Below are positions 7,265 through 46,787 of a stretch of DNA of 64,000 bases, piece by piece (the first letter of the stretch is position 1; each line of letters starts with the position of its first letter). Source of the stretch: a virus. The notes under the pieces are model-generated. The model did not search any database. It saw nothing but the letters and a program-made list of their open reading frames with translations, and was not told the origin of the DNA. Position numbers and translations under genes: made by a program. The DNA lies in IMG/VR virus record IMGVR_UViG_3300013307_000002, positions 18,362-82,361 of that record, one strand, 5' to 3'.

Positions 7265-7621
7265 ATGAAACAGCAAACAATATCTAAAGAGCGTCGCAAT
7301 GCGATGCATCGTAATTACAAGGCATACATAGGCAGGCTGATTGCCTTGTTCCCTGAAGTGTTTGACCGTGAAAACCCTAAGCCGCTGGCTATCGGTACTG
7401 CTGAAATGCTTCTCAGTCTGCCAGCGTTAAAGATGGATGATGATCTAGTGTCTGACGTGCTGGCTTGTTGGTGTAGCCGCCGGGAGTATATCCGTGCTGC
7501 TTATCAACTGCGGGAACGTTGGAACGTGGTCGGTGTGCCTGTTGGCCCTATCATTGATTGGCAACAGAAACGTTTTGACACTCTTTATCACAAGATGGTC
7601 AAGCGTGGTTTGTATAACTAA
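7265..7621 (+). CDS. ProQ/FinO-domain RNA chaperone
   Basis: Predicted RNA-binding protein of the ProQ/FinO family, which binds structured RNAs and controls sRNA-mRNA pairing. The family signature is clear: LFPEVFD then NPKPLAIG (about residues 28-44), then CSRREYIRA and a terminal WNVVGVPVGP-like strand. At 118 aa it is a single FinO domain without the linker and tudor-like tail of host ProQ. It has its own unit after a strong terminator. It may act on the structured RNAs encoded nearby or on host sRNAs (inference). Confidence 0.85.
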   Translation: MKQQTISKERRNAMHRNYKAYIGRLIALFPEVFDRENPKPLAIGTAEMLLSLPALKMDDDLVSDVLACWCSRREYIRAAYQLRERWNVVGVPVGPIIDWQQKRFDTLYHKMVKRGLYN

Positions 7622-14060: not shown

Positions 14061-15281
14061 ATGACTGGTCAAATGTTCGATGTTCGTGGAAAGCGCGTTT
14101 TTACTGCATCTGATCGTGGTACAGAAGTTAGTGTGATTCCTGCCAGTGTTTACACTGTGGAGTTCAACCCCATGACTGGTTGGTATCTGGAGCGTGCTGC
14201 TATCCCTTCCCGACCGAAGCGTCTGTACGGCGATGTGGCAGACCGTGCTCAACGTATTCTGAACACTTATCATGATCGTCTGAACCAGCCCGGTAAAAAC
14301 ACAGCGGCGCTGCTGTCAGGTAATAAAGGCTCAGGCAAAACTATGCTGTCTGCTGAAGTTGCTGTAGCTGCTATTGAATCTGGTCTGCCAGTTATTCTGG
14401 TTGAAGCGGGCCACACTGATCCTAGCTTCTTTAAGTTCCTGAACTCAATCACCCAGCCTTCTATCGTTCTGATTGACGAGTTCGAGAAGAAGTATAAAGA
14501 CGATGAAGAGCAAAATGCTCTGCTCGGTCTGTTGGACGGTATCAATGCTGGCGGTAAGCTTTTCATTCTTACCTCAAACAACAGCACCGTATCTCAGTTC
14601 CTCATGTCTCGTCCGAGTCGTATCTTTTACCACTACCGCTATGAAAAGCTGGACGAAGCAACTGTGGTTGGTTACTGTAACGACAATCTGACCGATGCAG
14701 CTAAGCATCATCAAGTGAATATCAAAACTCTGTGGGATTTCTCTACAGATTTTAACTTCGATATTCTTCAGTGTCTGGTCGAAGAGCTTAATCGTTATCC
14801 AGCGATCAATTTTGTTGAATGTCTGAAAGTTCTGAACATTGTGGTTAATGGCCTCACTGAGCGCCGTTTTGTTCTGGAGAAATTCACCCTTGATGGTGTA
14901 GATATTTCCAGAAGTAAAGGTCAGATGTTCAGCATCAACGTGGCAACTTTCGTAGATGGCTATCAAGGCTTAGCTGTCAACGGATTCTTTTCACAAGAAG
15001 AAGACATGTTGCAGCTTGAACGTTGTGCCGGTAAGAGTATGTATCATCACAATATTAACTACTTTAAGCTAAAAGCTGAAACTGGTAAAGCCGCATCTGA
15101 TGATTATTATGATGGAGATTTTACTTATTATGTTAAAGCAGACCCCTCTCATGTCTCTGTTTCTGCTGAAGAAATTAGCGGTATGTGGGACATTGAAGGC
15201 CGTCGCCTTGAAGTTAAAGCTGTTGTTTCTCGCAAGTCTTCAGAGCAAGACCTGTATGAAAAAATCTTTGTTAGCAATTAA
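14061..15281 (+). CDS. AAA+ ATPase, 406 aa
   Basis: P-loop ATPase of the AAA+ type. Walker A GNKGSGKT at about residues 87-94, Walker B IVLIDEFE at about 134-141, sensor 1 ILTSNNS near 171 and an SRPSRIF arginine-finger-like motif near 184. The C-terminal 170 residues match nothing I recognise. AGGAAT ribosome site; own transcription unit between terminators. Such phage AAA+ proteins may remodel replication or host complexes; the substrate is unknown. Confidence 0.85.
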   Translation: MTGQMFDVRGKRVFTASDRGTEVSVIPASVYTVEFNPMTGWYLERAAIPSRPKRLYGDVADRAQRILNTYHDRLNQPGKNTAALLSGNKGSGKTMLSAEVAVAAIESGLPVILVEAGHTDPSFFKFLNSITQPSIVLIDEFEKKYKDDEEQNALLGLLDGINAGGKLFILTSNNSTVSQFLMSRPSRIFYHYRYEKLDEATVVGYCNDNLTDAAKHHQVNIKTLWDFSTDFNFDILQCLVEELNRYPAINFVECLKVLNIVVNGLTERRFVLEKFTLDGVDISRSKGQMFSINVATFVDGYQGLAVNGFFSQEEDMLQLERCAGKSMYHHNINYFKLKAETGKAASDDYYDGDFTYYVKADPSHVSVSAEEISGMWDIEGRRLEVKAVVSRKSSEQDLYEKIFVSN

Positions 15282-17166: not shown

Positions 17167-17178
17167 ACTACTGTGACG
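17167..17178 (+). repeat. 12-bp repeat ACTACTGTGACG, copy 5
   Basis: The copy spans the GTG start codon (17173-17175) of the HD hydrolase gene. Confidence 0.75.
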
Positions 17179-17640
17179 GATTTTGTTTTGGAAGCATCTA
17201 AATTAGCGGCTCAGTTTCATCAGGGTCAAAAGTATGGCAACCTCGATTACTTCGAGGGTCATATTGATTCAGTCGCAACTCAAGCTGATGTAATTGCATA
17301 TGGTTTGAAGTTTAGTAGTGAAGAAATCCGCCATGTGGTTGCCGCTGCGTATCTTCATGATATTCTTGAGGATACTTTCTGTGAAGCTAAAACTCTCCTT
17401 GAGAAAGGTATACCGCATGTTGTTGTAACTGCTGTCGGTGTTCTGACTAAAGGGTGCGAGTCTAAGAGTCAGTATTTAGCGGCTATCTCTTGTAGTAGAA
17501 TAGCTACTGTCGTTAAATTGGCTGACAGCATGGTGAACTTAAGGGCTTGTATTGCTGATGGCAAATTTGTCAAAGCTCTTAAGTATTCAGACAACATCAA
17601 CTTTCTTACGACTGTTATTAGTCGTTGGAGTGGTCAATGA
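17173..17640 (+). CDS. RelA/SpoT-type HD hydrolase (predicted small alarmone hydrolase)
   Basis: Metal-dependent HD phosphohydrolase resembling the (p)ppGpp hydrolase domain of SpoT and stand-alone MESH1-like enzymes. At 155 aa it is a single domain. Visible motifs: HQGQ (15-18), GH near 30, catalytic HDILEDT (62-68), LTKG (91-94) and VKLADSMVNL (114-123). GTG start after AGAGGT. It could remove stringent-response or related toxic nucleotides during infection; MESH1-like enzymes also act on NADPH, so substrate is open. Coupled to the next gene by ATGA. Confidence 0.82.
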   Translation: MTDFVLEASKLAAQFHQGQKYGNLDYFEGHIDSVATQADVIAYGLKFSSEEIRHVVAAAYLHDILEDTFCEAKTLLEKGIPHVVVTAVGVLTKGCESKSQYLAAISCSRIATVVKLADSMVNLRACIADGKFVKALKYSDNINFLTTVISRWSGQ

Positions 17641-17852: not shown

Positions 17853-17988
17853 GCCAGTTAATATGATGGATCGTGCTCCCTTTTTAGTAGGTGAGCTGGT
17901 AGGTCATCGTCCATTCATCTTTTATAAATTCGACAAGCGTTACTATATGTCGATTGTCAACAAACCAAATCAAAAGGTAATTCACTAA
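17839..17988 (+). CDS. Hypothetical protein, 49 aa
   Basis: GTG start with GGAG nine bases upstream, overlapping the preceding gene; stop overlaps the TerB-like start (TAATG). Unrecognised, mixed and aromatic (FIFYKFDKRYYMSIV). Confidence 0.6.
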   Translation: MSHTEPVNMMDRAPFLVGELVGHRPFIFYKFDKRYYMSIVNKPNQKVIH

Positions 17989-18422
17989 TGTTCGGACTGA
18001 AAAAGAAACTGCAATCCCTGATCTCTTCCATCAAAAAGATCGAAAATAAATCTGCATTCCAAGCTGCTGTAGCTTCTGCTGTTTGGGTAGCTGCTGCTGA
18101 TGGCTCTATCGACGATAACGAACTGGATCTGCTGGAAAAACTGATCAAAGGCAACGATAAGCTGTCTAACTTCTCCAGCGAAATCGATTCTGAAATGGGC
18201 AAATGGGTTGCTGCCTTCACTGGCGGTGGTAAGCGTTCTGCAATGCTTCAGGTAAACGCTCTGCTGGATTCCATCAAAACTGACCGTGCTGCTGCTGAGC
18301 AGGTACTGGTTACTGTCATTGATGTGGCAGATACTGATAATAACATCGACGAAAATGAAGCGGCTGTCGTTCGTCAGGTTGCTTCCCGCCTCGGCCTGAA
18401 TGCTTCTAATTACGGCCTGTAA
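17988..18422 (+). CDS. TerB-like protein
   Basis: Matches the TerB (tellurite-resistance protein B) helical fold: AVWVAAADGSIDDNELDLL at about residues 31-49, repeated as a second acidic helix-turn (DVADTDNNIDENEAAVV near 108-124). TerB proteins bind metal at the inner membrane and partner with TerC, which this phage also carries at 21134. Host-like codon use suggests high expression. Known for the family: part of stress and phage-related Ter systems; role in a phage is unknown. Confidence 0.8.
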   Translation: MFGLKKKLQSLISSIKKIENKSAFQAAVASAVWVAAADGSIDDNELDLLEKLIKGNDKLSNFSSEIDSEMGKWVAAFTGGGKRSAMLQVNALLDSIKTDRAAAEQVLVTVIDVADTDNNIDENEAAVVRQVASRLGLNASNYGL

Positions 18423-18508: not shown

Positions 18509-18535
18509 ATAAGCCTCTACGGGGGCTTATTATTG
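18509..18535 (+). terminator. Possible weak terminator
   Basis: ATAAGCC (18509-18515) pairs with GGCTTAT (18524-18530); the following stretch is AT-rich but not a pure T run. Confidence 0.5.
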
Positions 18536-18565: not shown

Positions 18566-19447
18566 ATGATTCGTCTTAAAATTAATAATGTCGATGTAGC
18601 CTTAAATCAGGTTTCATTCTCAGATGGAGCTAAGAGCTTATCACTTCGTGGTGCCTTACCTACCTACTGTAATAACGCCACCATTGAAGCAACACCCGAT
18701 GGCAGCCTTCCAGAGCTTTTCTTTGAAATTGCTCAATGTGTAGATGTTCTTCGTCAGAAGAATAATCGCATTGAAATTAAACTGATCATGCCTTACATTC
18801 CATATGCAAGACAAGATCGTCCAATGGTGCGCAACGATTCCTTCTCTCTCAGAGTGTTCGCTGATTTACTCAACAGCTTAAACCTCGATAAAGTTATTGT
18901 TGTCGATGCCCATAGCAATGTAAGCACCGCGTTAATTCGTAACTGTGTGCATATCGAGCAGCATCAGCTCATTTCATATTCTCCGATTCTGGTTATCTTC
19001 CCTAAAGATTGCGTTCTGGTTGCTCCAGACGAAGGATCTCTGAAGAAGATTAATAAGGTTGCTGATGTTGTTAAGCCTGCTGGCGTTGTTGTAATGTCTA
19101 AAGAGCGTGACGTTTCGACAGGACAAATTATTGGATCTTCGATTGTGTCTAGCCCTTTCCAATCGTTAGAAGGTCGAACCTGTACGATTGTTGATGATAT
19201 CTGCGATGGCGGAGCAACATTCATCAGTATCGCACAAAAGCTTAAAGAAGCTGGAGTTGAGCGTGTGTATCTCTGGGTTACTCATGGCATATTCAGTAAA
19301 GGTCTGACACCTTTGCTAGAGCAGGGTATTGATGGTGTCTACACCACAAACAGCCTGAACCAGTCTAAGCAACTTGACAAAGATTGGCGTGGTAAATTCT
19401 GCTCTTTCAACCTCTCTCCTATGATTTCCGCAAGAAGTTTAATGTGA
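18566..19447 (+). CDS. Ribose-phosphate pyrophosphokinase-like (Prs or ADPR-PP synthetase)
   Basis: Phosphoribosyltransferase-fold kinase of 293 aa. Family motifs: MPYIPYARQDRP (about 79-90), VVDAHS, VLVAPDEGS and the nucleotide/ribose-phosphate loop CTIVDDICDGGATF (about 204-217). Ordinary Prs makes PRPP from ribose-5-phosphate and ATP. Because the next gene is NAMPT-like, it could instead be the Adps of the NAD-rebuilding NARP1 pathway, which is Prs-like but pyrophosphorylates ADP-ribose. Start at the ATG after GAGG. Sequence alone does not separate the two activities. Confidence 0.9.
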   Translation: MIRLKINNVDVALNQVSFSDGAKSLSLRGALPTYCNNATIEATPDGSLPELFFEIAQCVDVLRQKNNRIEIKLIMPYIPYARQDRPMVRNDSFSLRVFADLLNSLNLDKVIVVDAHSNVSTALIRNCVHIEQHQLISYSPILVIFPKDCVLVAPDEGSLKKINKVADVVKPAGVVVMSKERDVSTGQIIGSSIVSSPFQSLEGRTCTIVDDICDGGATFISIAQKLKEAGVERVYLWVTHGIFSKGLTPLLEQGIDGVYTTNSLNQSKQLDKDWRGKFCSFNLSPMISARSLM

Positions 19448-19474
19448 TTACTATCTCTGATAATAGGATGTAAA

Positions 19475-21109
19475 ATGGATCTGAATCCGATTTTTGCAAT
19501 TGATGGCTATAAAACTTCACATCGTGACCAATACCCATCAGGCACTGAGAAGGTGTACGGCAACTTTACCCCTCGCAGTAATAAGCACTTTGACTCTCCA
19601 TTCTTTGCTAAACGCAAAGGTGGTAGCCCTCTGATTTGGGCTGGCTCTCAGGCGCTGGTTCTTCAGTGGTTGTGCAAAAACTTCAATCAGTATTTCTTCA
19701 ATGCTGATAAAACTCGCACGGTCAATGAGTTCAAATCTTTTATGGACTCATATCTCGGCAAAAATGCTGTTTCTGTAGATGGCATTGCTGCACTTCATGA
19801 CCTCGGATATCTGCCTCTGGAGATTAAATCTCTCCCTGAAGGTAGTTTCGTTGAAATGAAAACGCCAGTGCTTACCATCACAAATACTCTGCCTGAATTC
19901 TTCTGGCTGGTTAACTATCTGGAAACCCTGTTCAGCGCTGAGCTTTGGCCTGTAGCAACTGCTGCCACGATCGGTTTCAACTACCGCTGTATTGGCGAGT
20001 ATTGGGCAGCCAAGACTTGTGACAATTCAGAGCACATTGGTTGGCAGTTCCATGACTTCTCTGCCCGTGGTGACATGGGTATGTGGGCTAACACTCTGGT
20101 TGGTATGGGGCATCTGTTCTCCTTCACCGGCACTGATTCAGTGGCTGCTCTGCGTCGTCTGCAAATGCAGTATGAGATTGATTGTCTGGATGGTGGTTCT
20201 ATCCCAGCGACAGAGCATAGCGTGATGTGTATGGGGACTAAGGACGGTGAACTTGAAACGTTCCGCCGTCTTGTTCAAGATATCTATCCATCAGGCCCAA
20301 TGGCAGCAGTGGGTGATACTTGGGATTGGTGGAAAGTCCTTCTTGAGTATGCTTCCCAACTGAAAGAGATTATTTTGTCCCGCGAAGGCAAAGTAGTTTT
20401 CCGTCCAGACTCAGGTGACCCGGTAGATATTATCTGCGGTGAGCAGTTCATCGATCTGGATAGTTGTACTCATCTTGGCGAAGCACTTACTACTATGCTG
20501 CGTGCTAGAGCTGAAGGTCTTGTTTGCCGTTTTAATGGCGAATATTTCCGTCTAGTTGACGGTGGCTTTGTTCAAGTTCCTGAACACATCATCAAAGGCT
20601 CTATTCAGTTGCTGTGGGAAATCTTTGGTGGCACGATCAATAAGAAGGGCTTCAAAGTTCTGAACCCTAAAGTTGGTCTGATTTATGGTGATAGCATCAC
20701 TATGGAACGTGCTGAAGAGATTTTCGAACGCTTAGCCAATAAGAGCTTTGCGTCGTCCAACGTAGTGCTGGGTATTGGTTCTTATACCTATCAGTATGTT
20801 ACTCGTGACACGTTTGGTTTTGCCATGAAAGCTACTTATGGCGTTGTTAATGGCGAACCTCGTGAAATCTTTAAAGACCCTGCTACCGATGATGGGACTA
20901 AGAAGTCTCTGAAAGGTCTGCTATGCCACACGGTTAATGATCGTGGTGAATGGTCAGTTAAAGATCAAGTAACCCCTGAAGAAGAGGCTAAGAGCGAGCT
21001 GACCACTATCTTTAAAGATGGTAAGGTCACTGGTCACACTTCCCTTCAGGAAATTCGTAACCGCGTATCTTATGCGGTGTCTAAATTCGTGGCAGAACGT
21101 TCTGTCTAA
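19475..21109 (+). CDS. nadV: Nicotinamide phosphoribosyltransferase-like (NadV/NAMPT or Namat)
   Basis: Transfers a phosphoribosyl (or ADP-ribosyl) group to nicotinamide for NAD synthesis. Full length (544 aa). Motifs: DGYKTSHRDQYPSGTE at residues 10-25, FHDFSARGD near 192, PATEHSVM with the phosphorylatable His at 248, DTWDWW near 282, FRPDSGDPVDI with the substrate-binding Arg near 310, and GIGSYTYQYVTRDTFGF. It is 27 bases behind the Prs-like gene, with which it forms a two-step pathway. Host-like codons. Could be classic NMN-making NAMPT or Namat of NARP1. Confidence 0.93.
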   Translation: MDLNPIFAIDGYKTSHRDQYPSGTEKVYGNFTPRSNKHFDSPFFAKRKGGSPLIWAGSQALVLQWLCKNFNQYFFNADKTRTVNEFKSFMDSYLGKNAVSVDGIAALHDLGYLPLEIKSLPEGSFVEMKTPVLTITNTLPEFFWLVNYLETLFSAELWPVATAATIGFNYRCIGEYWAAKTCDNSEHIGWQFHDFSARGDMGMWANTLVGMGHLFSFTGTDSVAALRRLQMQYEIDCLDGGSIPATEHSVMCMGTKDGELETFRRLVQDIYPSGPMAAVGDTWDWWKVLLEYASQLKEIILSREGKVVFRPDSGDPVDIICGEQFIDLDSCTHLGEALTTMLRARAEGLVCRFNGEYFRLVDGGFVQVPEHIIKGSIQLLWEIFGGTINKKGFKVLNPKVGLIYGDSITMERAEEIFERLANKSFASSNVVLGIGSYTYQYVTRDTFGFAMKATYGVVNGEPREIFKDPATDDGTKKSLKGLLCHTVNDRGEWSVKDQVTPEEEAKSELTTIFKDGKVTGHTSLQEIRNRVSYAVSKFVAERSV

Positions 21110-21133: not shown

Positions 21134-22063
21134 ATGGGTAATCCATTCTGGTTGTATGTTGCACTAGCTGTAACTTTGGTAGTGTCTATCTTTGTTGATT
21201 TTATTGGTCACAAGGAAGGCAAAGAACAAACTTTGGCCTCAAGCGTTGTATGGTCATTGTTCTGGATTGCAGCAGCCGTAACACTCGGTGGTTATATCTA
21301 CCTTGTTTATGGGTCAACTGCTGCCAGTGAATACTTCTCAGGCTATGCAATGGAGAAAGCACTCTCTATTGATAACTTGATGGTGTTTGTTGCTATCTTC
21401 TCGTTCTTCGGTATCAAAGACAGTTATCGAAAGCATAAGATCCTGCTATGGGGTATTGCTGGAGCACTTGTGTTCCGTGCAATATTTGTAGCTTTAGGTA
21501 CTACGTTGTTCCATCTACATTGGAGCGTCGAAGTTATCTTTGGCTTACTGGTTATCTTTTCAGCTTACGCTTTGGTCAAAGGTGGAGATGATGAAGAAGA
21601 GGAAAACTATAATGAAAAACCGTACATCAGGCTGGTTCGCAAGTTCTACCCTGTGGACTCAGACTCTAACAGTAGCCGCTTTTTTACTGTTAATAACGGT
21701 GTTCGTTATGTTACGCCTATGTTTCTTTGTCTGCTCACTGTTGAGCTTAGCGACATTATGTTTTCGTTCGACTCCGTGCCAGCAGTTATCGGAATCACGA
21801 AAGAGCCACCTCTGGTATATGCGGCGATGATTATGGCCATTCTTGGCCTGAGAGCGCTGTTCTTCGTACTAGGCTGGATGATGAAGCATCTGACACGTCT
21901 CGACGCTTTCGTAGCACTTATTCTAGTGTTTGTTGGTGTTAAACTTGTTGGACACCCTTTTGGGTTGGAAATCGGGGCAACGCAAAGTCTTTATGTGGTG
22001 CTCGGTTTGCTGTTGGCTGGCGTACTTGTTTCTTTGGTTCTCCCTAAGAAAGAGAACGATTAA
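21134..22063 (+). CDS. terC: TerC-family membrane protein
   Basis: Integral inner-membrane protein of 309 aa with about eight to nine hydrophobic segments. TerC/Alx signatures: EKALSIDNLMVF at about residues 76-87 and VELSDIMFSFDSVPAV near 204-219, both with acidic residues inside the membrane that bind metal. An acidic cytoplasmic loop (DDEEEE) lies between. Family members are linked to manganese export and tellurite/stress resistance. It follows the NAMPT-like gene by 24 bases. Carriage by a phage together with TerB is unusual. Confidence 0.92.
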   Translation: MGNPFWLYVALAVTLVVSIFVDFIGHKEGKEQTLASSVVWSLFWIAAAVTLGGYIYLVYGSTAASEYFSGYAMEKALSIDNLMVFVAIFSFFGIKDSYRKHKILLWGIAGALVFRAIFVALGTTLFHLHWSVEVIFGLLVIFSAYALVKGGDDEEEENYNEKPYIRLVRKFYPVDSDSNSSRFFTVNNGVRYVTPMFLCLLTVELSDIMFSFDSVPAVIGITKEPPLVYAAMIMAILGLRALFFVLGWMMKHLTRLDAFVALILVFVGVKLVGHPFGLEIGATQSLYVVLGLLLAGVLVSLVLPKKEND

Positions 22064-25556: not shown

Positions 25557-26408
25557 ATGTCAACATCCTTTCTGTCCGCTCCCTCTGTCCCTCTACGAAA
25601 TGGGAGAGTAGTGGAGCAATCCCGTAGAGCGTGCTTCGGTGAGTATAATCGACTTTCTGATGAAGCTAGAAGCACACTGGAAGTCATGGAGTGGCACCCA
25701 GAAACATCTAACGGGTATAAACAGGCAAAGGAATGTCGTGAATTTATTAGCAGCTTTGGTTTCTGGAAAGATGTGTATCGAGTGACAACACTGAGTGGAA
25801 TGGCTGCTGATATCCGAGATAAACCTGCTGATTTAATTATCACTGGTTTCATGGCGGCAAGAAACTTTAGCCAGCGTCAGTATGAGTTTTTGGCAGATGG
25901 CGGTTCTTTCCCTGAAGGAACTACCTATCTTGATTCGTGCCGATACAGCTTTCTTGCCTCAGTGATTGGCGGGTCTGTTGGGGCTTTTGGTTTCAACTAC
26001 ACCGACCCGCGTAATGGCGAGAGTGGTCTTTGTCGTTTGTTAGAAGAAGATGATGCTTATGGCTTATATCTTCTGGCGTTTGGTAGTAAAGAAGAGTGTG
26101 AAGGGGCTTTCTTTCAACATCCACTGTTTACTCCGGGCACCCCTAATGACAACGGTTATCTGAGAGATGATCACCGTACCACTGCACGGAGCATGATGCG
26201 CCAGATGGGCTACACACCTCAGCAAGTAGATGTGTGGCGATCAATGTCTGATTGGCTCCGGCTGTTCCTGACCTCATCTAAAGCTCAGGCTTCTGGTAAG
26301 TTAGGTCGCTTAACTGTAGGACAGTTTATCTCTCGTCATTCACAACGTGGTAATGATATTACTACCTTCGTATCTATGTTTGAAGAACTTAAGGATATGT
26401 ACTCATGA
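25557..26408 (+). CDS. Unknown protein of the amidoligase cluster, 283 aa
   Basis: Unrecognised soluble, acidic protein. Glycine-rich stretch SVIGGSVGAFGFNYTDP near 140-156; helical C-terminus. It overlaps the amidoligase start by ATGA, evidence for tight coupling. Function not deducible. Confidence 0.82.
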   Translation: MSTSFLSAPSVPLRNGRVVEQSRRACFGEYNRLSDEARSTLEVMEWHPETSNGYKQAKECREFISSFGFWKDVYRVTTLSGMAADIRDKPADLIITGFMAARNFSQRQYEFLADGGSFPEGTTYLDSCRYSFLASVIGGSVGAFGFNYTDPRNGESGLCRLLEEDDAYGLYLLAFGSKEECEGAFFQHPLFTPGTPNDNGYLRDDHRTTARSMMRQMGYTPQQVDVWRSMSDWLRLFLTSSKAQASGKLGRLTVGQFISRHSQRGNDITTFVSMFEELKDMYS

Positions 26409-27199
26409 GTTTCACTATCGGAACCGATCCAGAGCTGTTCACCCGTCGTCAAGGCAAAATCTCCTCAGTAGCAGGTCTGCTGGGCTGTAGTAAGTCTGAG
26501 AAGTTGCATCTTAGTCAGAACGTTCGTCTGCAAGAAGATAATGTTCTTGCTGAATTCGATATTAACCCTTGTAAGGGTTTTGAGCAGTTCGATGCAACTG
26601 TGCAGGAAGGTCTGGATCTTACTCAGGCGCTTCTGGCTAAGCATGGCCTTGAGATTGCTAACGGTGTTAGTAGTCACATTTTCTCTGAAGAAGAGATGAA
26701 AAGCTTCCATAAGAGTGCTTTTGAGTTTGGATGTACTCCAGACTATAATGCTTTTACTGGTCGTCAGAACGCTTCTCCTTCAGCAGCAGATCCCGGCCTT
26801 CGTACTGCCGGTGGTCACATCCACATCGGTTATGCTGAAACAATTCCAGTCACCAAACAAAACCAGTTAACTGCTGGCGTTCTGTGTGACTATTTCCACT
26901 CACTTCCAGCGATGTTTATGGATGGTGATGAACGTCGTAAAGAGCTTTACGGCAAAGCAGGTGCAATTCGTTTCAAAGATTACGGTATCGAATATCGTTC
27001 TCTTAGTAATTTCTGGGTAACAGATAAGAATCTGCGTCGTGTCATTTACGACCAGACAGAGAAAGTTGTTCAGTTCTTGGGAACAGATAAGCTGCTTCAG
27101 CTCAACTCCCTGCTGCCTGTACAGCGTTTACAGACCATCATTAACACTAATGATAAGCGTACAGCAGAATCTTTCTTATCTCGTTTGGGTATTATTTAA
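26405..27199 (+). CDS. phiEco32-type COOH-NH2 ligase (amidoligase type 2)
   Basis: Member of the glutamine-synthetase/GCS-like superfamily of ATP-dependent carboxylate-amine ligases. Visible hallmarks: IGTDPELF (5-12), FGCTPDYNAFTG (about 108-119), GGHIHIG (about 137-143), metal- and substrate-binding positions of the fold, then AGAIRFKDYGIEYRSLSNFW (near 191-210). Predicted to join an amine to a peptide or amino-acid carboxyl group; substrate unknown. Sits with a second amidoligase, glutamine amidotransferase, ATP-grasp and GGCT-like genes. ATGA-coupled to the gene before. Confidence 0.85.
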   Translation: MSFTIGTDPELFTRRQGKISSVAGLLGCSKSEKLHLSQNVRLQEDNVLAEFDINPCKGFEQFDATVQEGLDLTQALLAKHGLEIANGVSSHIFSEEEMKSFHKSAFEFGCTPDYNAFTGRQNASPSAADPGLRTAGGHIHIGYAETIPVTKQNQLTAGVLCDYFHSLPAMFMDGDERRKELYGKAGAIRFKDYGIEYRSLSNFWVTDKNLRRVIYDQTEKVVQFLGTDKLLQLNSLLPVQRLQTIINTNDKRTAESFLSRLGII

Positions 27200-27208
27200 G
27201 GGGGCTAT

Positions 27209-27814
27209 ATGAGCTTGCTTCGTGACTATAATCACTATTACCAGCAATCTTGGGTAGGGGTGAAAGAGGGTAATCTTCTTCTCCCTATCTATGTTGAGCA
27301 GGTTATTGACAGTAGTGATTATGACAGAGATGATTACTCGGAAGAACACAGAGCGCGTCTTGAAATACACGGTTATCGCTACACTAAGAATAGTCGTGGT
27401 CGCGTGTCTGGTTCTCGTTTTTCTATCTCTGTTCTTGATGAAAGTCTTGTTCTGGAATCTCCAGACGTAGGTTACATCTCAAACGGTCATGATGTTCGTT
27501 GGGCGGTTATCCGTCCAGTTCGTCAGCGCATGAAAGGCATGGTAAGCAATAAGGTTGTTGGTACAAGTTTGGGTCGTAGCAATGAAAATGCTTCGATTAT
27601 CTACAACCTGTTTAATCCTGAATTTGAAGGTATGATTAATCGCTATATGTTTGTAGCTCCGTCTGACAATCACATCTATTATAAAGGTGCGAAAGTTGGG
27701 GTAATTACAGAAACTGGTGTTAATATTATCTCTCGGTTCTCTTACCTGCTTCCTATGCTTACCGCGTGTGAGCAGTATCGTGATTTACCTGTAACTCCTG
27801 TAGAGGCTCTATGA
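27209..27814 (+). CDS. Unknown protein between two amidoligases, 201 aa
   Basis: Unrecognised, basic beta-rich protein (GYRYTKNSRGRVSGSRFSIS; ISNGHDVRWAVIRPVRQRM). Ends four bases inside the next amidoligase gene (ATGA). Its strict position suggests a subunit or substrate-binding partner of the ligases (inference). Confidence 0.8.
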   Translation: MSLLRDYNHYYQQSWVGVKEGNLLLPIYVEQVIDSSDYDRDDYSEEHRARLEIHGYRYTKNSRGRVSGSRFSISVLDESLVLESPDVGYISNGHDVRWAVIRPVRQRMKGMVSNKVVGTSLGRSNENASIIYNLFNPEFEGMINRYMFVAPSDNHIYYKGAKVGVITETGVNIISRFSYLLPMLTACEQYRDLPVTPVEAL

Positions 27815-28947
27815 CCACTGTACAGTCTGTATTTAATCATCGTCCCCCACGGCTTAGCAGCCCGCATCCAAAAATCGCATTCAATGCCGGCGTTGGTATT
27901 GAGTTAGAGGTTGAGGGTGTAAGTCACATTGATGTACCCCTCTGGAACTGCACTGAAGATGGCTCACTTCGTAATGGTTGTGAGCTGGTTTGTGCTAATC
28001 CTTACTCTGGCGTTCAGTTGTATGAAGCGATTGAAAACCTCAGCGAATCAGTAACTCGTAGCGGTGCTCAAGGCACTTGGCGCTGTTCCACTCACGTTCA
28101 CTTAGATGTTCGTGATTGTGATGATAACACGCTGAAGAAAGTCATTCTTGCATGGGCTTTTTATGAAAAGCTCCTGTTTAAATGCTCTGGTTTCCATCGT
28201 TATCGTAGTAACTTCTGTCCGGCGTTTGCTGTTGTTCAGGCTCAGCTTTTAAACGCTTCTATAGCGTTCAATCATTCTGGTGAAAACTTCTTTCATCGTC
28301 TGGTTAGTTGCTGGGATAAATACACTTCACTGAATCTGCTCCCTTTGATGCAGTTCGGTAGTGTTGAATTCAGAATTTCTGAGCCTAAGTGGAAGCGTAC
28401 TAACCTGTTGAATCTGGTTAACCGTTTCTTAACTCTGAAAAAACTGGCTGTAGAAAACAGTCATCTGACACATCAAGCTTTTATTGATATGTTACGTGAT
28501 TTAGGTTTCTCTGCAATGATGGAATATCTGCCGCTTGATTATATGCTTGACCAGAGAGATCTGGATGATGGGTATATTCTGGCGAATGATGTTCTTAATG
28601 TTCGTGCAAGAGAGACTACTGTTGTTTCTCGTGTTACTCTTAATGTTCTGAATGCTGAAGCTATTGATAACTACGTAGTGGAAGATGTTCGTTCTGTATT
28701 GAATAACTGGACACACTATGCAGGGCACTGTGTATCTAAGAATGAGTTGTACGCTAACATTTTTAGAGAGATCTTTTCGACAGGTTCACCTCGTTCTGTA
28801 GATAGTTGTAATCTCGGAATGATTAGCCGGTTGATCGAAGAGTGGAAAGTTATTGCGCAAAGTCGTGCCGACACTGACAGTGAGATCAATGAGATTATCC
28901 TGTCGAACTGGACTAATGAATTAAGTCGTTTTATTGAAAATCTTTAA
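27811..28947 (+). CDS. Amidoligase (Amidoligase_2 family)
   Basis: Second predicted ATP-dependent carboxylate-amine ligase. Signs of the family: GVGIELEVEGV (about 28-38), W...EDGSLR-NGCELV (about 45-60), CSTHVHLDV (about 91-99), then NFCPAFAV, and LLPLMQFGSVEFRISE (near 176-191) with the conserved Glu-Arg. Residues after about 230 are helical and unassigned. It probably acts after or together with the type-2 ligase on the same product. Overlaps the previous gene by four bases. Confidence 0.83.
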   Translation: MTTVQSVFNHRPPRLSSPHPKIAFNAGVGIELEVEGVSHIDVPLWNCTEDGSLRNGCELVCANPYSGVQLYEAIENLSESVTRSGAQGTWRCSTHVHLDVRDCDDNTLKKVILAWAFYEKLLFKCSGFHRYRSNFCPAFAVVQAQLLNASIAFNHSGENFFHRLVSCWDKYTSLNLLPLMQFGSVEFRISEPKWKRTNLLNLVNRFLTLKKLAVENSHLTHQAFIDMLRDLGFSAMMEYLPLDYMLDQRDLDDGYILANDVLNVRARETTVVSRVTLNVLNAEAIDNYVVEDVRSVLNNWTHYAGHCVSKNELYANIFREIFSTGSPRSVDSCNLGMISRLIEEWKVIAQSRADTDSEINEIILSNWTNELSRFIENL

Positions 28948-28964
28948 AAATAGAGGATTATAAG

Positions 28965-30992
28965 ATGTGTGGAATCGTATTGGCAGGTGGTAACTTATTC
29001 GCTACAGAAGCAGATATTTTTAGTAATCTTCTGTATGCTGATGTATTTCGTGGTATTCATGCAACTGGTGTTTATGCAAAGCGTGGTACTGAAGGTATCG
29101 TAATGGCTAAAGATGCCGTGCCTTCTTATACTTTCCTTAACACGAAAGCTTATAAAGAAGTGCTGACTGGTAAAACAACAGCTAACGTATTTCCTTCTTT
29201 CATCGTTGGGCATAACCGCCATGCAACACGGGGTAACTCAGATGATCCTAAAGGTGCCCACCCGTTCCAGCACGGTAAAATAACGCTGGTTCATAACGGT
29301 ACTCTGTATGACACTTCTCACTTACCAGAGCACGAGAAGTTTGTTGTGGACAGTGAAAACATCTGTTACTCGATTGATAAGATTGGAGCGGAAGCGACCA
29401 TTCAGAAACTGGATGGTGCCTTTACTCTTATTTGGCACGATGCCAATGATGAAACAGTGCATATCATTCGTAACAGTGAGCGTCCATTCCATCTTGCCAA
29501 AGCAGGCGCTGATTGGTTTGGTGCTTCTGAAGAAGAGATGCTGATGTGGATTCTGAATCGCAGCAAATCTGTAGGCAAACGTAAAATTGAACACTTCGAA
29601 TGCGAAGTAGGTGTTGAATACATCTTCGACGTTAGTGGTGTCGGTAAGAAGTTTGAACTTAAATCTCAGGTCAAACACACTCTCCCAACTTTTACGTACG
29701 CCAGTCGTTATGGAGCGCTGGGAAGCGGTTGGCAAAACAGCTATGGAAACAAGAGAAGCTACTATCCAGCGGTAAGTCAGGAAGAAAGAAAGGCAACCGC
29801 AAACGCAGGCTATAATGCTATTGCTATTCGTAATGGCCTTAAAGTTCGTGTTGATCATCGTGTTGACTTTATTCCAACATCTTTCTTCCCCTACAGCAAC
29901 AACAGTAATGTAGGTAAGATGATGGGCTACTTCATGGATAATGACACTGAGTACCTTGAAGTTGATGTGTTCGGTGTTAAGAAAGAATTGTATGACGAGT
30001 CTCAGAGAGATTTGAACTTCGTCTTTACTGGCACTGTTCAGTCTATCATTGAGCTGAAACCTGCTGCCTCTGCCCATAGCAACCGCCCTATTCCTCGTCT
30101 GATTGTGACTGGTATTTCTTTGCTTAGTCCAGAAGCAAAAAAAACAAGGGATACGATTGACGAAGAGTTAACTGAACTCGCTGATGATGTACCTTTTGAG
30201 CATGAAGGGGGTGATACGGATTCTCCGGACTCCTTTCGTACCATTGGAGGTACAGAGATTACTCGCGACTTTTGGATGAAGCATGACCACGGTGTCTGCA
30301 TGGGTTGTAACAAAACAATCCCGTGGAGTAAGGCGAAGGATGCAGCATATGCATACCAAGCTTTCTGGCATCCAGAATGTTTAGCTCGTACAGAGAAAGA
30401 AGAGGCTGATGTTCGTGAACAGTCTAATAATACTTTCTACTGTGGTTCATGTGGTAGTGAAAAGGATATGAAATTCCTCGACACCACTGCATCAGCGAAG
30501 AACGAAACTGACACTTGCTCAGCTTGCGGCTCTGAAGAACGTCGTCGTGGCGCTGTTCAGGGGAATGATTACGTCACCGCTTCTTTCAAAGTTTCGGATA
30601 GTTCAGGTAATGTTAAAATGACGTCTCGTGTGTTTAATCGTCGTGAGTTTGAACACATGATTCGTGAACGTGGTAGTGATAGTGTGGAGTTCAAAAACTT
30701 AGCAGATGCGAATATTACACTTCGCGGAAGCAATGTGTTTGCTTATTTCTATAAGAAAGATGGTAGTCACAAAGCTGTAGCTAAGGAGGAAACCAGCACT
30801 CAAGCTGGAAGCTTTCCCACAGCAAAGTTCATCAAAAAGTCTGATGGAACAAGCTACAAAGTCTCAAAAGCCCTCTGGCTTCAAATCGGTTCTTGCGTCC
30901 ATTGTCGGAGCACTGTTCCGTGGATAGATGTTGAGAAGTGTTCATTTACTGAAAATGGTAAAGTGGTCTGCAAAGATTGTAAAGGTGAATAA
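28965..30992 (+). CDS. Class II glutamine amidotransferase with C-terminal zinc fingers
   Basis: The N-terminus MCGIVLAGG has Cys2, the class II (Ntn) glutaminase nucleophile; GHNRHATRG (about 86-94) and HNGTLYD (about 109-115) complete the active site. It would release ammonia from glutamine. Unlike GlmS, PurF or AsnB it has no recognised acceptor domain; instead residues after about 430 carry several zinc-finger pairs (CMGC, CGSCGS, CSACGS, CVHC, CKDC). Probably feeds ammonia or a glutamyl group to the neighbouring ligases, with the zinc fingers binding a partner (inference). Confidence 0.88.
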   Translation: MCGIVLAGGNLFATEADIFSNLLYADVFRGIHATGVYAKRGTEGIVMAKDAVPSYTFLNTKAYKEVLTGKTTANVFPSFIVGHNRHATRGNSDDPKGAHPFQHGKITLVHNGTLYDTSHLPEHEKFVVDSENICYSIDKIGAEATIQKLDGAFTLIWHDANDETVHIIRNSERPFHLAKAGADWFGASEEEMLMWILNRSKSVGKRKIEHFECEVGVEYIFDVSGVGKKFELKSQVKHTLPTFTYASRYGALGSGWQNSYGNKRSYYPAVSQEERKATANAGYNAIAIRNGLKVRVDHRVDFIPTSFFPYSNNSNVGKMMGYFMDNDTEYLEVDVFGVKKELYDESQRDLNFVFTGTVQSIIELKPAASAHSNRPIPRLIVTGISLLSPEAKKTRDTIDEELTELADDVPFEHEGGDTDSPDSFRTIGGTEITRDFWMKHDHGVCMGCNKTIPWSKAKDAAYAYQAFWHPECLARTEKEEADVREQSNNTFYCGSCGSEKDMKFLDTTASAKNETDTCSACGSEERRRGAVQGNDYVTASFKVSDSSGNVKMTSRVFNRREFEHMIRERGSDSVEFKNLADANITLRGSNVFAYFYKKDGSHKAVAKEETSTQAGSFPTAKFIKKSDGTSYKVSKALWLQIGSCVHCRSTVPWIDVEKCSFTENGKVVCKDCKGE

Positions 30993-30993
30993 A

Positions 30994-31218
30994 ATGGAAG
31001 TGAAGAAAATTTTACTGGATGATGTAGCGGTTGTACGTAAAATCCCTATGTCAGAGAAAGGATGCGACAATCTCCGAGCTATTCAGAAGTATCTCGTTGA
31101 TGGACTATCAGCAAAAATGGGTAAGCCTGTTGAGCTGCCATACCCTACCGTGATTAACATGGTTCTTGCTGAGTTTGTACAGAGGCACAATATCCATGTC
31201 CCAGGTAAGTCAAGTTGA
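30994..31218 (+). CDS. Hypothetical protein, 74 aa
   Basis: Start at the ATG after AAAGGT. Small helical protein (MSEKGCDNLRAIQKYLVDGL; PTVINMVLAEFVQRHNI). Resembles a ribbon-helix-helix or dimerisation unit but not assignable. Overlaps the next gene by 23 bases. Confidence 0.65.
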   Translation: MEVKKILLDDVAVVRKIPMSEKGCDNLRAIQKYLVDGLSAKMGKPVELPYPTVINMVLAEFVQRHNIHVPGKSS

Positions 31219-31414
31219 GTTTTCACTAGCTTTCATCATGGGTCGACTCTCCGCTCTTGTGGCGGAGCAGTCTCGTGCCTATGTTTATGCTTTCGATATC
31301 GAAGCACCCTCTGATGAAGTTTATTTTCAATCATTAGAAGATTACATATTCCTAGCAGAACAAATCCAATACTGCTTAATTGAACTCGATCAAATCAAAA
31401 GGTTATTAAAATGA
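31196..31414 (+). CDS. Hypothetical acidic protein, 72 aa
   Basis: Helical and acidic; start at the ATG with GAGG ten bases before. Stop overlaps the ATP-grasp start by ATGA. A carrier-like or adaptor role for the ATP-grasp enzyme is possible from coupling only. Confidence 0.65.
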   Translation: MSQVSQVEFSLAFIMGRLSALVAEQSRAYVYAFDIEAPSDEVYFQSLEDYIFLAEQIQYCLIELDQIKRLLK

Positions 31415-32664
31415 CTCGTATTGCTATCCTTCCTTATGGCCCATCTGACTCTTGTACTGCACTGCGTGATGCTCTTATTGCTCAGTTTGAAGGTGACAAC
31501 ACTACTTCTGTTCGTAAACTTCGTAGTGATAATAGCAGCACTTTTCGTGGTCGTGCTGGTGATATCATCATCAACTATGGCAATCGTTCAGCCCCTGAAG
31601 AACGTTTCGGTAATGCCTTTGTCTTAAACAGTCAGGGTGCTCTGAGAAATGCAGCTAACAAGCTGAATGCCTTGAATACGATGCGTAATAACAACGTGTC
31701 AACTGTCCCATTCACTGTAAACTCAGAAGAAGCTCGTATTTGGGCGGCATCTGGTTCAGTTGTATATGCTCGTACAACTTTGAATGGTCACTCTGGTGAA
31801 GGTATTGTTGTTGTCAATGCTAATAACATTGATGCTATGCCGGAAGCACCTCTGTACACCAAGGGTATTACTGGTCGTCGTCGTGAATGGCGTGTTCATG
31901 TTTTCGATGGTGTAATCACTCATGTTCAGGTTAAACGTCGTCGTAACGGTTATGCTGAAGATCCTAACTATCGTGATGATGTACGTAACCATCAAACTGG
32001 TTGGATTTATGCAACTGAAAACATCAACCCATCTCAGGCAGTTCTGCGTAATGCAGTGAATGCTGTTGCTTGTATGGGTCTTGACTTCGGTGCTGTTGAT
32101 ATCATCAGTCTTGGTGATGAAGCTTGGGTTCTGGAGGTTAATACTGCTCCGGGTCTTCAGGCAGAAACTACTATGACAGCTTTTGTCAATGCTCTAACTG
32201 CGAAAATTCATAACATTCGCTTCCGGGGTGCGCCTCAAATGGTTATCACTCCAGCGTTCCAACTGGAACCAGAGGTACAGGAAGAAGATGCTTTTACTCC
32301 AGAAGAAATTGCTGCTGAAGAAGATGATCTTGCTGGTAGTTATGACCCAGAAGCCGCAGCCTTCTTTAATGCGGGAGCTTTTGGCACTGATCGTCCGGCA
32401 GCCATGTCAGCTCCTCAAGTACAAATGACTGCTGAAGGTACTCTCCCTGAAGCAGAAACTCGCAATGTTCCAGATGGCTATTATCTTGCAAATATTCAGC
32501 GAATGGACGATCGTTCAACTGCAATGAATGTAATTGTGTGGGTTTCTAGTGGTCTTGTATATCGACACGGTTGGAACTCTCCGATTCGTCTGAGTCAAGT
32601 TCGTGGCCTTCGTGCCATCACCTCTGTAGTGTCTGGTAACGAAACTGTAGCTGTTTCTGTATAA
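31411..32664 (+). CDS. ATP-grasp ligase
   Basis: Predicted carboxylate-amine/thiol ligase using ATP through an acyl-phosphate. ATP-grasp features: YARTTLNGHSGEGIVVV (about 112-128), a second lysine-bearing strand with REWRVHVFDG, and the metal site AVDIISLGDEAWVLEVNTAPGL (near 229-250, shown in parts). RimK/YheCD-like layout. The C-terminal 130 residues contain an acidic disordered linker and a small beta domain. Central enzyme of the peptide-ligation block; substrate unknown. Confidence 0.88.
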   Translation: MTRIAILPYGPSDSCTALRDALIAQFEGDNTTSVRKLRSDNSSTFRGRAGDIIINYGNRSAPEERFGNAFVLNSQGALRNAANKLNALNTMRNNNVSTVPFTVNSEEARIWAASGSVVYARTTLNGHSGEGIVVVNANNIDAMPEAPLYTKGITGRRREWRVHVFDGVITHVQVKRRRNGYAEDPNYRDDVRNHQTGWIYATENINPSQAVLRNAVNAVACMGLDFGAVDIISLGDEAWVLEVNTAPGLQAETTMTAFVNALTAKIHNIRFRGAPQMVITPAFQLEPEVQEEDAFTPEEIAAEEDDLAGSYDPEAAAFFNAGAFGTDRPAAMSAPQVQMTAEGTLPEAETRNVPDGYYLANIQRMDDRSTAMNVIVWVSSGLVYRHGWNSPIRLSQVRGLRAITSVVSGNETVAVSV

Positions 32665-44217: not shown

Positions 44218-44727
44218 ATGAAGTACGTACAAGGGAATCTGTTGACGGCTCTACAATCTGGCAAGCTGGATGTGATCGCCCATCAGACGAACTGCTTCTG
44301 CAAGGGTCGTCGTGGAATAGCACCTCAAATCTTTGATGCCTTTCCTGAAGCTAAGCTTGCTGACGATAAAACAGAAGTAGGCGATGCAAGCAAGATGGGC
44401 AACTTTACTGTAGCGACCACTATGTGTGGTGGTCGTGTTTATAACCTCTATGGTCAATATCATTTTGATAACAGGAAGTCTGACTATGGAACTCATTATC
44501 CCTCTTTGCAGAACTCTTTATATGAAATGGCTTGTGATTTGCGAGAAGTTTATAGAAGCTCTACCGATGATACTCCTATTAGGGTTGGCTTTCCTCTCAT
44601 TGGCTGCGGCCTTGCCGGGGGTGATTGGAATCGTGTTTCAGAGTTTATAAAGAATGCCTTTGATGGCCCAGAATATGATGTTTATATTTATACTTTAAAT
44701 AAAATGGATGGTGTTCAATATGTCTAA
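44218..44727 (+). CDS. Macro-domain protein
   Basis: ADP-ribose-binding macro domain of 169 aa, of the Poa1/ADP-ribose-phosphatase-like type. Motifs: VQGNLLTAL (4-12), VIAHQTNCFCKGRRGIA (about 19-35), NLYGQYHFDNRKSDYG, and PLIGCGLAGGDWNRV (near 124-138). Known members bind or hydrolyse ADP-ribose derivatives or de-ADP-ribosylate proteins. Together with the NAD-synthesis-like pair it suggests handling of ADP-ribose during infection. GGAG ribosome site. Confidence 0.88.
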   Translation: MKYVQGNLLTALQSGKLDVIAHQTNCFCKGRRGIAPQIFDAFPEAKLADDKTEVGDASKMGNFTVATTMCGGRVYNLYGQYHFDNRKSDYGTHYPSLQNSLYEMACDLREVYRSSTDDTPIRVGFPLIGCGLAGGDWNRVSEFIKNAFDGPEYDVYIYTLNKMDGVQYV

Positions 44728-46238: not shown

Positions 46239-46787
46239 TTGAGATATTACACAGGTATCGGAAGTAGGGAAACCCCTTTGCATATCACAGAGCTTATGAA
46301 TCGGATTGGAGAAATCTGTGCTAAGCATAACATCATCCTTAGAAGTGGAGGTGCCGAAGGCGCTGACTCTGCTTTTGAGATGGGGTGTGACTCTGTAAAT
46401 GGTGAAAAAGAAATCTTCATTCCGTGGAACAACTTCAATGGTCGTAGGTCATCTATGAAAGGTGTTTACGTCAGAGGAGATGATGTTCACTCAAGGGTGA
46501 TTGCCCACAGCCTGCATCCTGTTTTTGACAGGCTTGGGAGAGGCGCTCAAGCCCTCCATACAAGAAATGTTAATCAGGTTCTTGGGAAAGATTCAGGCAG
46601 CCCTGAGCCTAGTAGCTTTGTCTTATTCTATGCTCCTGAAACATCATCAGGCAACGTTAAAGGTGGAACAGCTACTGCCGTGAATCTCGCTAAGCGTAAT
46701 AATATTCCTTGCTGGAATATGTGGTCTAATTCTAGTTATGACCAAATCCTAGATTGGATTGATAGTATCTTTAAAGAAAAACAATAA
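46239..46787 (+). CDS. SLOG/DprA-like Rossmann-fold protein
   Basis: Start TTG with AAGGAG. The sequence TGIGSRETP (5-13), ILRSGGAEGADSAFE (about 33-47) and EIFIPW (about 58-63) match the nucleotide-binding SLOG superfamily (DprA/Smf, LOG). Such proteins bind or cleave nucleotide ligands, or bind DNA (DprA). 182 aa, single domain. It precedes the DNA polymerase, so either a DNA-processing role or binding of a nucleotide signal is possible. Confidence 0.82.
   Translation: MRYYTGIGSRETPLHITELMNRIGEICAKHNIILRSGGAEGADSAFEMGCDSVNGEKEIFIPWNNFNGRRSSMKGVYVRGDDVHSRVIAHSLHPVFDRLGRGAQALHTRNVNQVLGKDSGSPEPSSFVLFYAPETSSGNVKGGTATAVNLAKRNNIPCWNMWSNSSYDQILDWIDSIFKEKQ

Follow-up and report, generated by a model that had tools for sequence, protein, structure and literature searches.

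Among the closest described relatives of the locus analyzed here are the NARP1 pair of Bacillus phage SPbetaL1, in which the gene Adps precedes Namat (PMC12774641), and NrsAB of Vibrio phage ICP1, which is reported to restore nicotinamide adenine dinucleotide (NAD+) against the SIR2-HerA (Nezha) defense (PMC11559045). In Namat, a selectivity clamp gives the preference for ADP-ribose pyrophosphate (ADPR-PP); it consists of a helix with the signature GSX-Phi-X-Phi-X-Phi-TRD and aromatic stacking residues, plus a residue in a loop whose pattern has Lys in third place and a stacking residue in the fourth (PMC12774641). The NARP2-type NadV/Nampt enzymes of KVP40, phiCbK and Arash share the homologous NAMPT fold and the nicotinamide chemistry, but they have a glycine-rich motif in place of the clamp and usually lie beside a nicotinamide mononucleotide (NMN) adenylyltransferase (NMNAT) rather than beside Adps. 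Here we describe a Prs-like and NAMPT-like gene pair from a 64,000-nucleotide window, bases 18362-82361 of the 82,361-bp virus record IMGVR_UViG_3300013307_000002. Gene anatomy, residue signatures, clade, modeled fold, gene context and purifying selection lead us to conclude that the pair is, in all probability, a NARP1 system, and thus a clear further case of a mechanism that has been described in other phages.

As a sequence-only reading of the window had noted, the two genes are adjacent and co-oriented. Both are complete open reading frames (ORFs) on the + strand, separated by exactly 27 bp, with firm profile matches: P0001 to Pribosyltran (2.8e-10), Pribosyl_synth (7.2e-10), Pribosyltran_N (7e-6) and PHROG 619 (7.7e-81), and P0002 to NAPRTase (1.3e-35), NAMPT_N (2.2e-5) and PHROG 448 (1.6e-185). 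P0001 could also be read as a longer ORF beginning with a TTG at 18533. The adjacency of Prs-like and NAMPT-like genes recurs in Grimontviridae (GAP52, A24, ECO319P1 and 7-11), in Felixounavirus and in many viral contigs and is therefore not due to chance. Ratios of dN/dS against near relatives (Nei-Gojobori) were 0.17 for Adps and 0.09-0.10 for Namat, rough estimates with dS near saturation; they indicate purifying selection, so that the pair is unlikely to be decaying. PADLOC matches of the Prs-like protein to ShosT/PsyrT were dismissed, since they are due to the shared phosphoribosyltransferase domain. A separate observation concerns PHROG 12872, a 547-position phage profile that covers residues 1-221 of P0001 as well as the C-terminal 300 of P0002; some phages may therefore have Adps and Namat in one fused or truncated protein.

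Residue signatures, folds and phylogeny

The clamp of P0002 is intact, with K37/H38, Y437, Y441, T443, R444 and D445 in place; the loop calls for either Arg or a Lys/Tyr with a stacking residue after it, and here has the latter form. Also conserved is the nicotinamide and ribose-phosphate core of SPbetaL1 Namat (F195, Y12, H248, R310 and D221 in P0002), defined by a nicotinamide-stacking Phe/Tyr, the catalytic His, Arg306 and Asp215 in SPbetaL1 numbering. When 80 Namat-type and 79 Nampt-type viral proteins were aligned, six columns split the two types (SPbetaL1 positions 190, 362, 391, 392, 394 and 396), and P0002 agrees with the Namat type at each of them (S, S, S, Y, Y and Y); the NadV of KVP40 (locus L192, taken as KVP40) has Nampt letters at these columns. 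The Nampt-type glycine motif without an aromatic clamp is absent from P0002, which has S436, Y437 and Y441 where Nampt-type proteins have G, G/A and a mostly nonaromatic residue. Among PDB sequences, P0002 matches SPbetaL1 Namat best (9W5X/9W5W, 448 bits; identified in the data statement of PMC12774641), ahead of the NadV of Haemophilus ducreyi (HdNadV; 9KE8, 393 bits) and mammalian NAMPT, human included (about 205 bits). The AF2 model (pLDDT 92.8) likewise has its best fold match in the SPbetaL1 Namat crystals (TM 0.94 by target length), followed by HdNadV and human NAMPT.

For P0001, the AF2 model (pLDDT 94.1) has the fold of a phosphoribosyl pyrophosphate (PRPP) synthetase, and the catalytic residues His116, Asp155, Lys179 and Arg181 show no variation across 45 viral Adps-type proteins. 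These proteins came from loci retrieved with the Namat alignment; when viral contigs were scanned with P0001 by itself, no relative came up. The loops that are characteristic of true Prs, DTGGT and KRR, are not present in P0001, which has DGGAT and KERDVSTG instead and thereby agrees with Adps-type proteins, experimentally supported ones included. A KxRxxxTGxI loop is also found in the Adps of SPbetaL1, ICP1, a mycobacteriophage, Felixounavirus and Kayvirus. The second loop of Adps-type proteins has G at the Prs Thr position in 69/74 cases and F after the last Thr in 74/74, and it reads SSFGGTF or TSYGGTF in SPbetaL1 and the Gram-positive group. In Prs, this second loop holds the 5-phosphate of ribose-5-phosphate; its altered form in P0001 would, from the sequence, fit a larger substrate. 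The structural basis of Adps selectivity has been described as obscure (PMC12774641).

In the phylogenetic trees, P0002 lies on the Namat side of a 100/100 split from Nampt, and P0001 lies inside an Adps clade that is split 100/100 from bacterial and phage Prs. The phylogeny that the sequence-only reading had proposed as a check thus groups the pair with Adps/Namat, not with classic Prs/NAMPT. The window, two IMG/VR loci (L016 and L017), GAP52 and 7-11 form one group close to Felixounavirus in each of the two trees, the pattern that a pair moving as one unit should give.

The SPbetaL1 system shares with the window the gene order, the catalytic core, the motif GS[FY]TYQY[NV]TRD and the TGxI loop of Adps. 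Its Namat is 48% identical to that of the window, which is 53 aa longer (with an insert at residues ~324-369), and its Adps is 28% identical, with SSFGGTF where the window has DGGxTF. The Grimontviridae (Cronobacter phages GAP52 and A24 and Salmonella phage 7-11) have the same pair in the same order, with the same clamp motif and DGGxTF loop, and Namat identities to the window of ~60% (GAP52) and 52% (7-11); there the genes carry no annotation beyond ribose-phosphate pyrophosphokinase and nicotinamide phosphoribosyl transferase. Felixounavirus (Escherichia phage momo) is the nearest named group outside Grimontviridae in both trees and has GSYTYQYMTRD and DGGRTF, although its Namat is longer (593 aa) and no Ter genes occur in the stretch examined; Bas63 of the NARP1 papers presumably belongs to this group. 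The signatures of the window pair are also those of ICP1 NrsAB. In ICP1 isolate 2018_Mat_167 the NrsB ORF is 5'-shortened, unlike in the window pair, in agreement with the report that most ICP1 carry a nonfunctional system (PMC11559045).

Several observations weigh against the NARP1 assignment. First, the Namat clade is impure: HdNadV, annotated as NadV and solved with NMN, falls inside it next to SPbetaL1 Namat, with which it shares 58% identity across aligned columns (its sequence, taken from a printed alignment, has small gaps). The tree alone is therefore no proof of ADPR-PP use, and we rejected the clade by itself as functional proof; placement in it is necessary, not sufficient, for NARP1. 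Second, SPbetaL1 Namat can in vitro turn PRPP into NMN as well (PMC12774641), and because of this some NMN output, with a host NMNAT finishing NAD+, is possible. Third, the clamp loop has Lys-His in the window and Arg in SPbetaL1, yet Lys is the commonest residue there among Namat-type proteins (43/80). Finally, the record is a metagenomic virus contig, which makes any particular defense that the phage meets conjectural.

The first two of these points, along with the folds and the general annotation, also fit classical (NARP2-like) salvage, in which ribose-5-phosphate would be converted to PRPP, PRPP and nicotinamide to NMN, and NMN to NAD+ by a host or phage NMNAT. HdNadV is indeed a case of a NadV within the Namat clade. 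However, HdNadV itself is without the clamp aromatics (GAQTYQRNTRD) and has no Prs-like gene on its plasmid pNAD1 (L270:3828-5315); it seems to have lost, or never gained, the use of ADPR-PP within the Namat clade. P0002, by contrast, has the clamp aromatics, and P0001 lacks both Prs loops. The functional call therefore depends on the clamp residues and on the partner gene rather than on the clade, and both are present in the window.

Gene context and proposed reaction

Gene context was compared between three sets of IMG/VR viral loci with equal flanks, anchored on Namat (79), Nampt (77) or PhoH (79). An Adps-like gene lies near 71/79 Namat-type anchors versus 2/77 Nampt-type ones, and NMNAT near 0/79 versus 52/77. 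The window follows the Namat pattern, with Adps adjacent and no protein matching CTP_transf_like (PF01467), sought for NMNAT, at E <= 1 in the 82-kb record, which may be incomplete. This context adds to the residue evidence against classical salvage, which we consider quite improbable.

Signatures, residue comparison, trees, modeled structure and context thus all favor NARP1, the option that the sequence-only reading had left open against NadV plus Prs. On this residue-level evidence, an unannotated Prs and NAMPT pair, and the same pair annotated as salvage in named Grimontviridae, move into NARP1. It also yields a practical test between NARP1 and NadV salvage that beats the tree: the clamp residues, a partner with TGxI and DGGxTF loops, and the absence of NMNAT.

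By analogy with SPbetaL1, ICP1 and DyoEdafos (PMC12774641, PMC11559045, PMC13232231), NARP1 enzymology of the pair appears highly likely and a counter-defense role likely. The Adps-type enzyme would use ATP to pyrophosphorylate ADP-ribose at its free 1''-hydroxyl, yielding ADPR-PP, and the Namat-type enzyme would swap the pyrophosphate for nicotinamide, giving NAD+ in two steps without an adenylyltransferase. The presumed substrates, ADP-ribose and nicotinamide, are exactly the products of NAD+-cleaving defenses of the SIR2, TIR and SEFIR kinds; with NAD+ rebuilt from these products during infection, the phage could complete its replication. Alternatively, the same chemistry may serve mainly to refill NAD+ drained by phage or host ADP-ribosylation or by RNA repair. 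The reaction would work whatever the source of ADP-ribose, and NARP1 loci in IMG/VR are often found near RNA ligase, Thg1, HAD_SAK RNA-repair, cREC and macro genes. Yet NARP1 homologs restore growth or replication under NADase defenses (PMC12774641, PMC11559045, PMC13232231), the functional ICP1 system costs fitness where the defense is absent (PMC11559045), and the window pair sits with Ter genes, not with RNA-repair genes, which makes such a housekeeping role improbable.

Two side observations concern nucleotide-related neighbors in other loci. A nucleoside 2-deoxyribosyltransferase-like gene (PF15891) lies near 19/79 NARP1 loci versus 1/156 controls, a count inflated by kinship (L030, L043, L055, L057, L060, L063, L066, L069, L072, L075, L079-L082, L086 and L092-L095). 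In Phage Phass-1 (L267:905-4420), a nicotinamidase gene directly precedes Adps-Namat-HAD; its product would use up the nicotinamide that Namat needs.

Ter, macro-like and SLOG-like genes of the window

Table 1. Features of the gene pair, its surroundings and HAD genes of other loci. Positions are those of the window unless preceded by a locus identifier (L).
Feature	Position	Strand	Remarks
TerB-like gene	17988-18422	+	Upstream of pair; PF05099 6.1e-11
Terminator-like hairpin	18509-18530	+	Between TerB-like gene and pair; consensus match only
Adps-type gene (P0001; ADP-ribose pyrophosphate synthetase)	18566-19447	+	293 aa; ATG, AAGAGG upstream; PRPP-synthetase fold, Adps clade and loops
Catalytic flexible loop KERDVSTGQI, TGxI ending	19100-19129	+	P0001 residues 179-188; KRRPRAN in E. 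coli Prs
Ribose-5-phosphate loop DDICDGGATF (DGGxTF)	19193-19222	+	P0001 residues 210-219; DDMIDTGGTL in Prs
Namat-type gene (P0002; nicotinamide ADP-ribose transferase)	19475-21109	+	544 aa; ATG, AGGA upstream
Clamp-loop residues K37-H38	19583-19588	+	Equivalent to adenine-stacking positions 40-41 of SPbetaL1
Clamp-helix motif GSYTYQYVTRD (Namat signature)	20777-20809	+	P0002 residues 435-445; fits GSX-Phi-X-Phi-X-Phi-TRD
TerC-family membrane protein gene	21134-22063	+	24 bp 3' of pair; PF03741 1.1e-42
Macro-domain-like protein	44218-44727	+	Distant from pair; possible ADP-ribose-releasing helper
SLOG/DprA-like protein	46239-46787	+	TTG start; Pfam E ~0.01; PHROG 768 1e-63
HAD genes	L056:5601-5999; L068:5287-5730; L069:5527-5964; L094:5519-5956		Beside or between Adps and Namat
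HAD genes	L076:7457-7855; L090:7533-7946; L268:3965-4396; L267:4001-4420		Beside or between Adps and Namat

The pair is flanked by Ter genes (Table 1). The TerC gene is likely to be on the same transcript as the pair, while the TerB-like gene probably forms a separate one. TerC adjoins the pair in Crifsvirus phages (Grimontviridae) and in L016 and L017, being in the same position, directly behind the pair, in GAP52, A24 and ECO319P1 as well as in these two loci; a TerB-like gene lies upstream of the pair in L016 and L017, too. GAP52 and A24 also carry TerD/TerZ genes, and in an unrelated contig (L054:1078-3112) a TerD-TerB-TerC set precedes the Adps-Namat pair. It could be argued from these arrangements that TerB, TerC and the Prs-like and phosphoribosyltransferase-like enzymes form a Ter-type stress module making some other nucleotide-like metabolite. 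However, only 4/79 NARP1 loci have TerC nearby, in 7-11 no TerC adjoins the pair, a search of the record for TerD (PF02342) gave no match, and the active sites are of the NARP1 type; we find such a module most implausible.

The sequence-only reading had also taken additional macro and SLOG proteins as favoring a link to ADP-ribose. Both genes exist, but they lie 23-27 kb from the pair, their matches are weak and the SLOG protein is DprA-like; it does not belong to the SLOG family that recurs near NARP1 and was set aside as NARP1 evidence. The macro-like protein stays below the Pfam Macro gathering score (18.1 bits versus a cut-off of 22; E 0.0028), although matches to OARD1 (4e-4, PDB sequences) and DarG (4.5e-6) support homology. 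It is of the same family as macro genes inside some NARP1 loci (8e-23), and macro genes are found near 16/79 NARP1, 7/77 Nampt and 2/79 PhoH loci, counts that are not independent because the loci are related. It is tempting to speculate that NARP1 here forms the center of a broader set of genes for ADP-ribose recovery. In such a set, the macro enzyme would supply Adps with ADP-ribose released from modified targets or ADPR-1''-phosphate, in a manner similar to that of RyDEP with NARP1 in phage DyoEdafos, and a co-transcribed TerC would tune metal supply or membrane state for the pair. Taken as a whole, this extended scheme is doubtful. RyDEP itself (PF02026) was sought in the record with no match.

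Independently of the window, one contig group has a macro gene between Adps and Namat (L055:3756-4271, L057:4845-5483, L071:3164-3664, L072:4138-4656, L075:5473-5988 and L078:3893-4429), an arrangement that resembles RyDEP inside the DyoEdafos NARP1 operon.

HAD phosphatases and relatives of the record

A small HAD-superfamily phosphatase family (PHROG 1238, labeled phosphoheptose isomerase) occurs in 10/79 NARP1 loci versus 0/156 control loci. Its ORF overlaps that of Adps in 9 of the 10, seven of them arranged Adps-HAD-Namat and two Namat-HAD-Adps. The gene separates Namat from Adps in crAss-like cr111_1, follows Adps-Namat directly in Phass-1 and neighbors Adps in two Lak phages; the family was not found in the 82-kb record of the window. 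Such a phosphatase is possibly a third NARP1 gene that would dephosphorylate ADPR derivatives. Together with the macro enzymes, it is a candidate accessory gene that could widen the ADP-ribose pool usable by NARP1.

The record itself is related to Grimontviridae, as judged from its genes: the order of replication and metabolic genes is that of Salmonella phage 7-11 and Cronobacter phage GAP52, to which the primase/helicase is 57-59% and the DNA polymerase 49-50% identical. Since near relatives in IMG/VR are 88-90 kb long, the 82-kb record may be nearly complete. Other genes of the window include an HD-domain phosphohydrolase-like protein directly upstream of the Ter/NARP1 region (17173-17640; PHROG 990, 1.8e-28) and an AAA/nSTAND3-like ATPase that is present in 7-11 too (14061-15281; PHROG 2376, 6.4e-92). 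A cluster of COOH.NH2 ligase, Amidoligase_2, glutamine amidotransferase and RimK-like ATP-grasp genes (26405-32664) also occurs in 7-11 and GAP52, and positions 7265-7621 encode a ProQ/FinO-family RNA-binding protein (PF04352, 3.6e-12).

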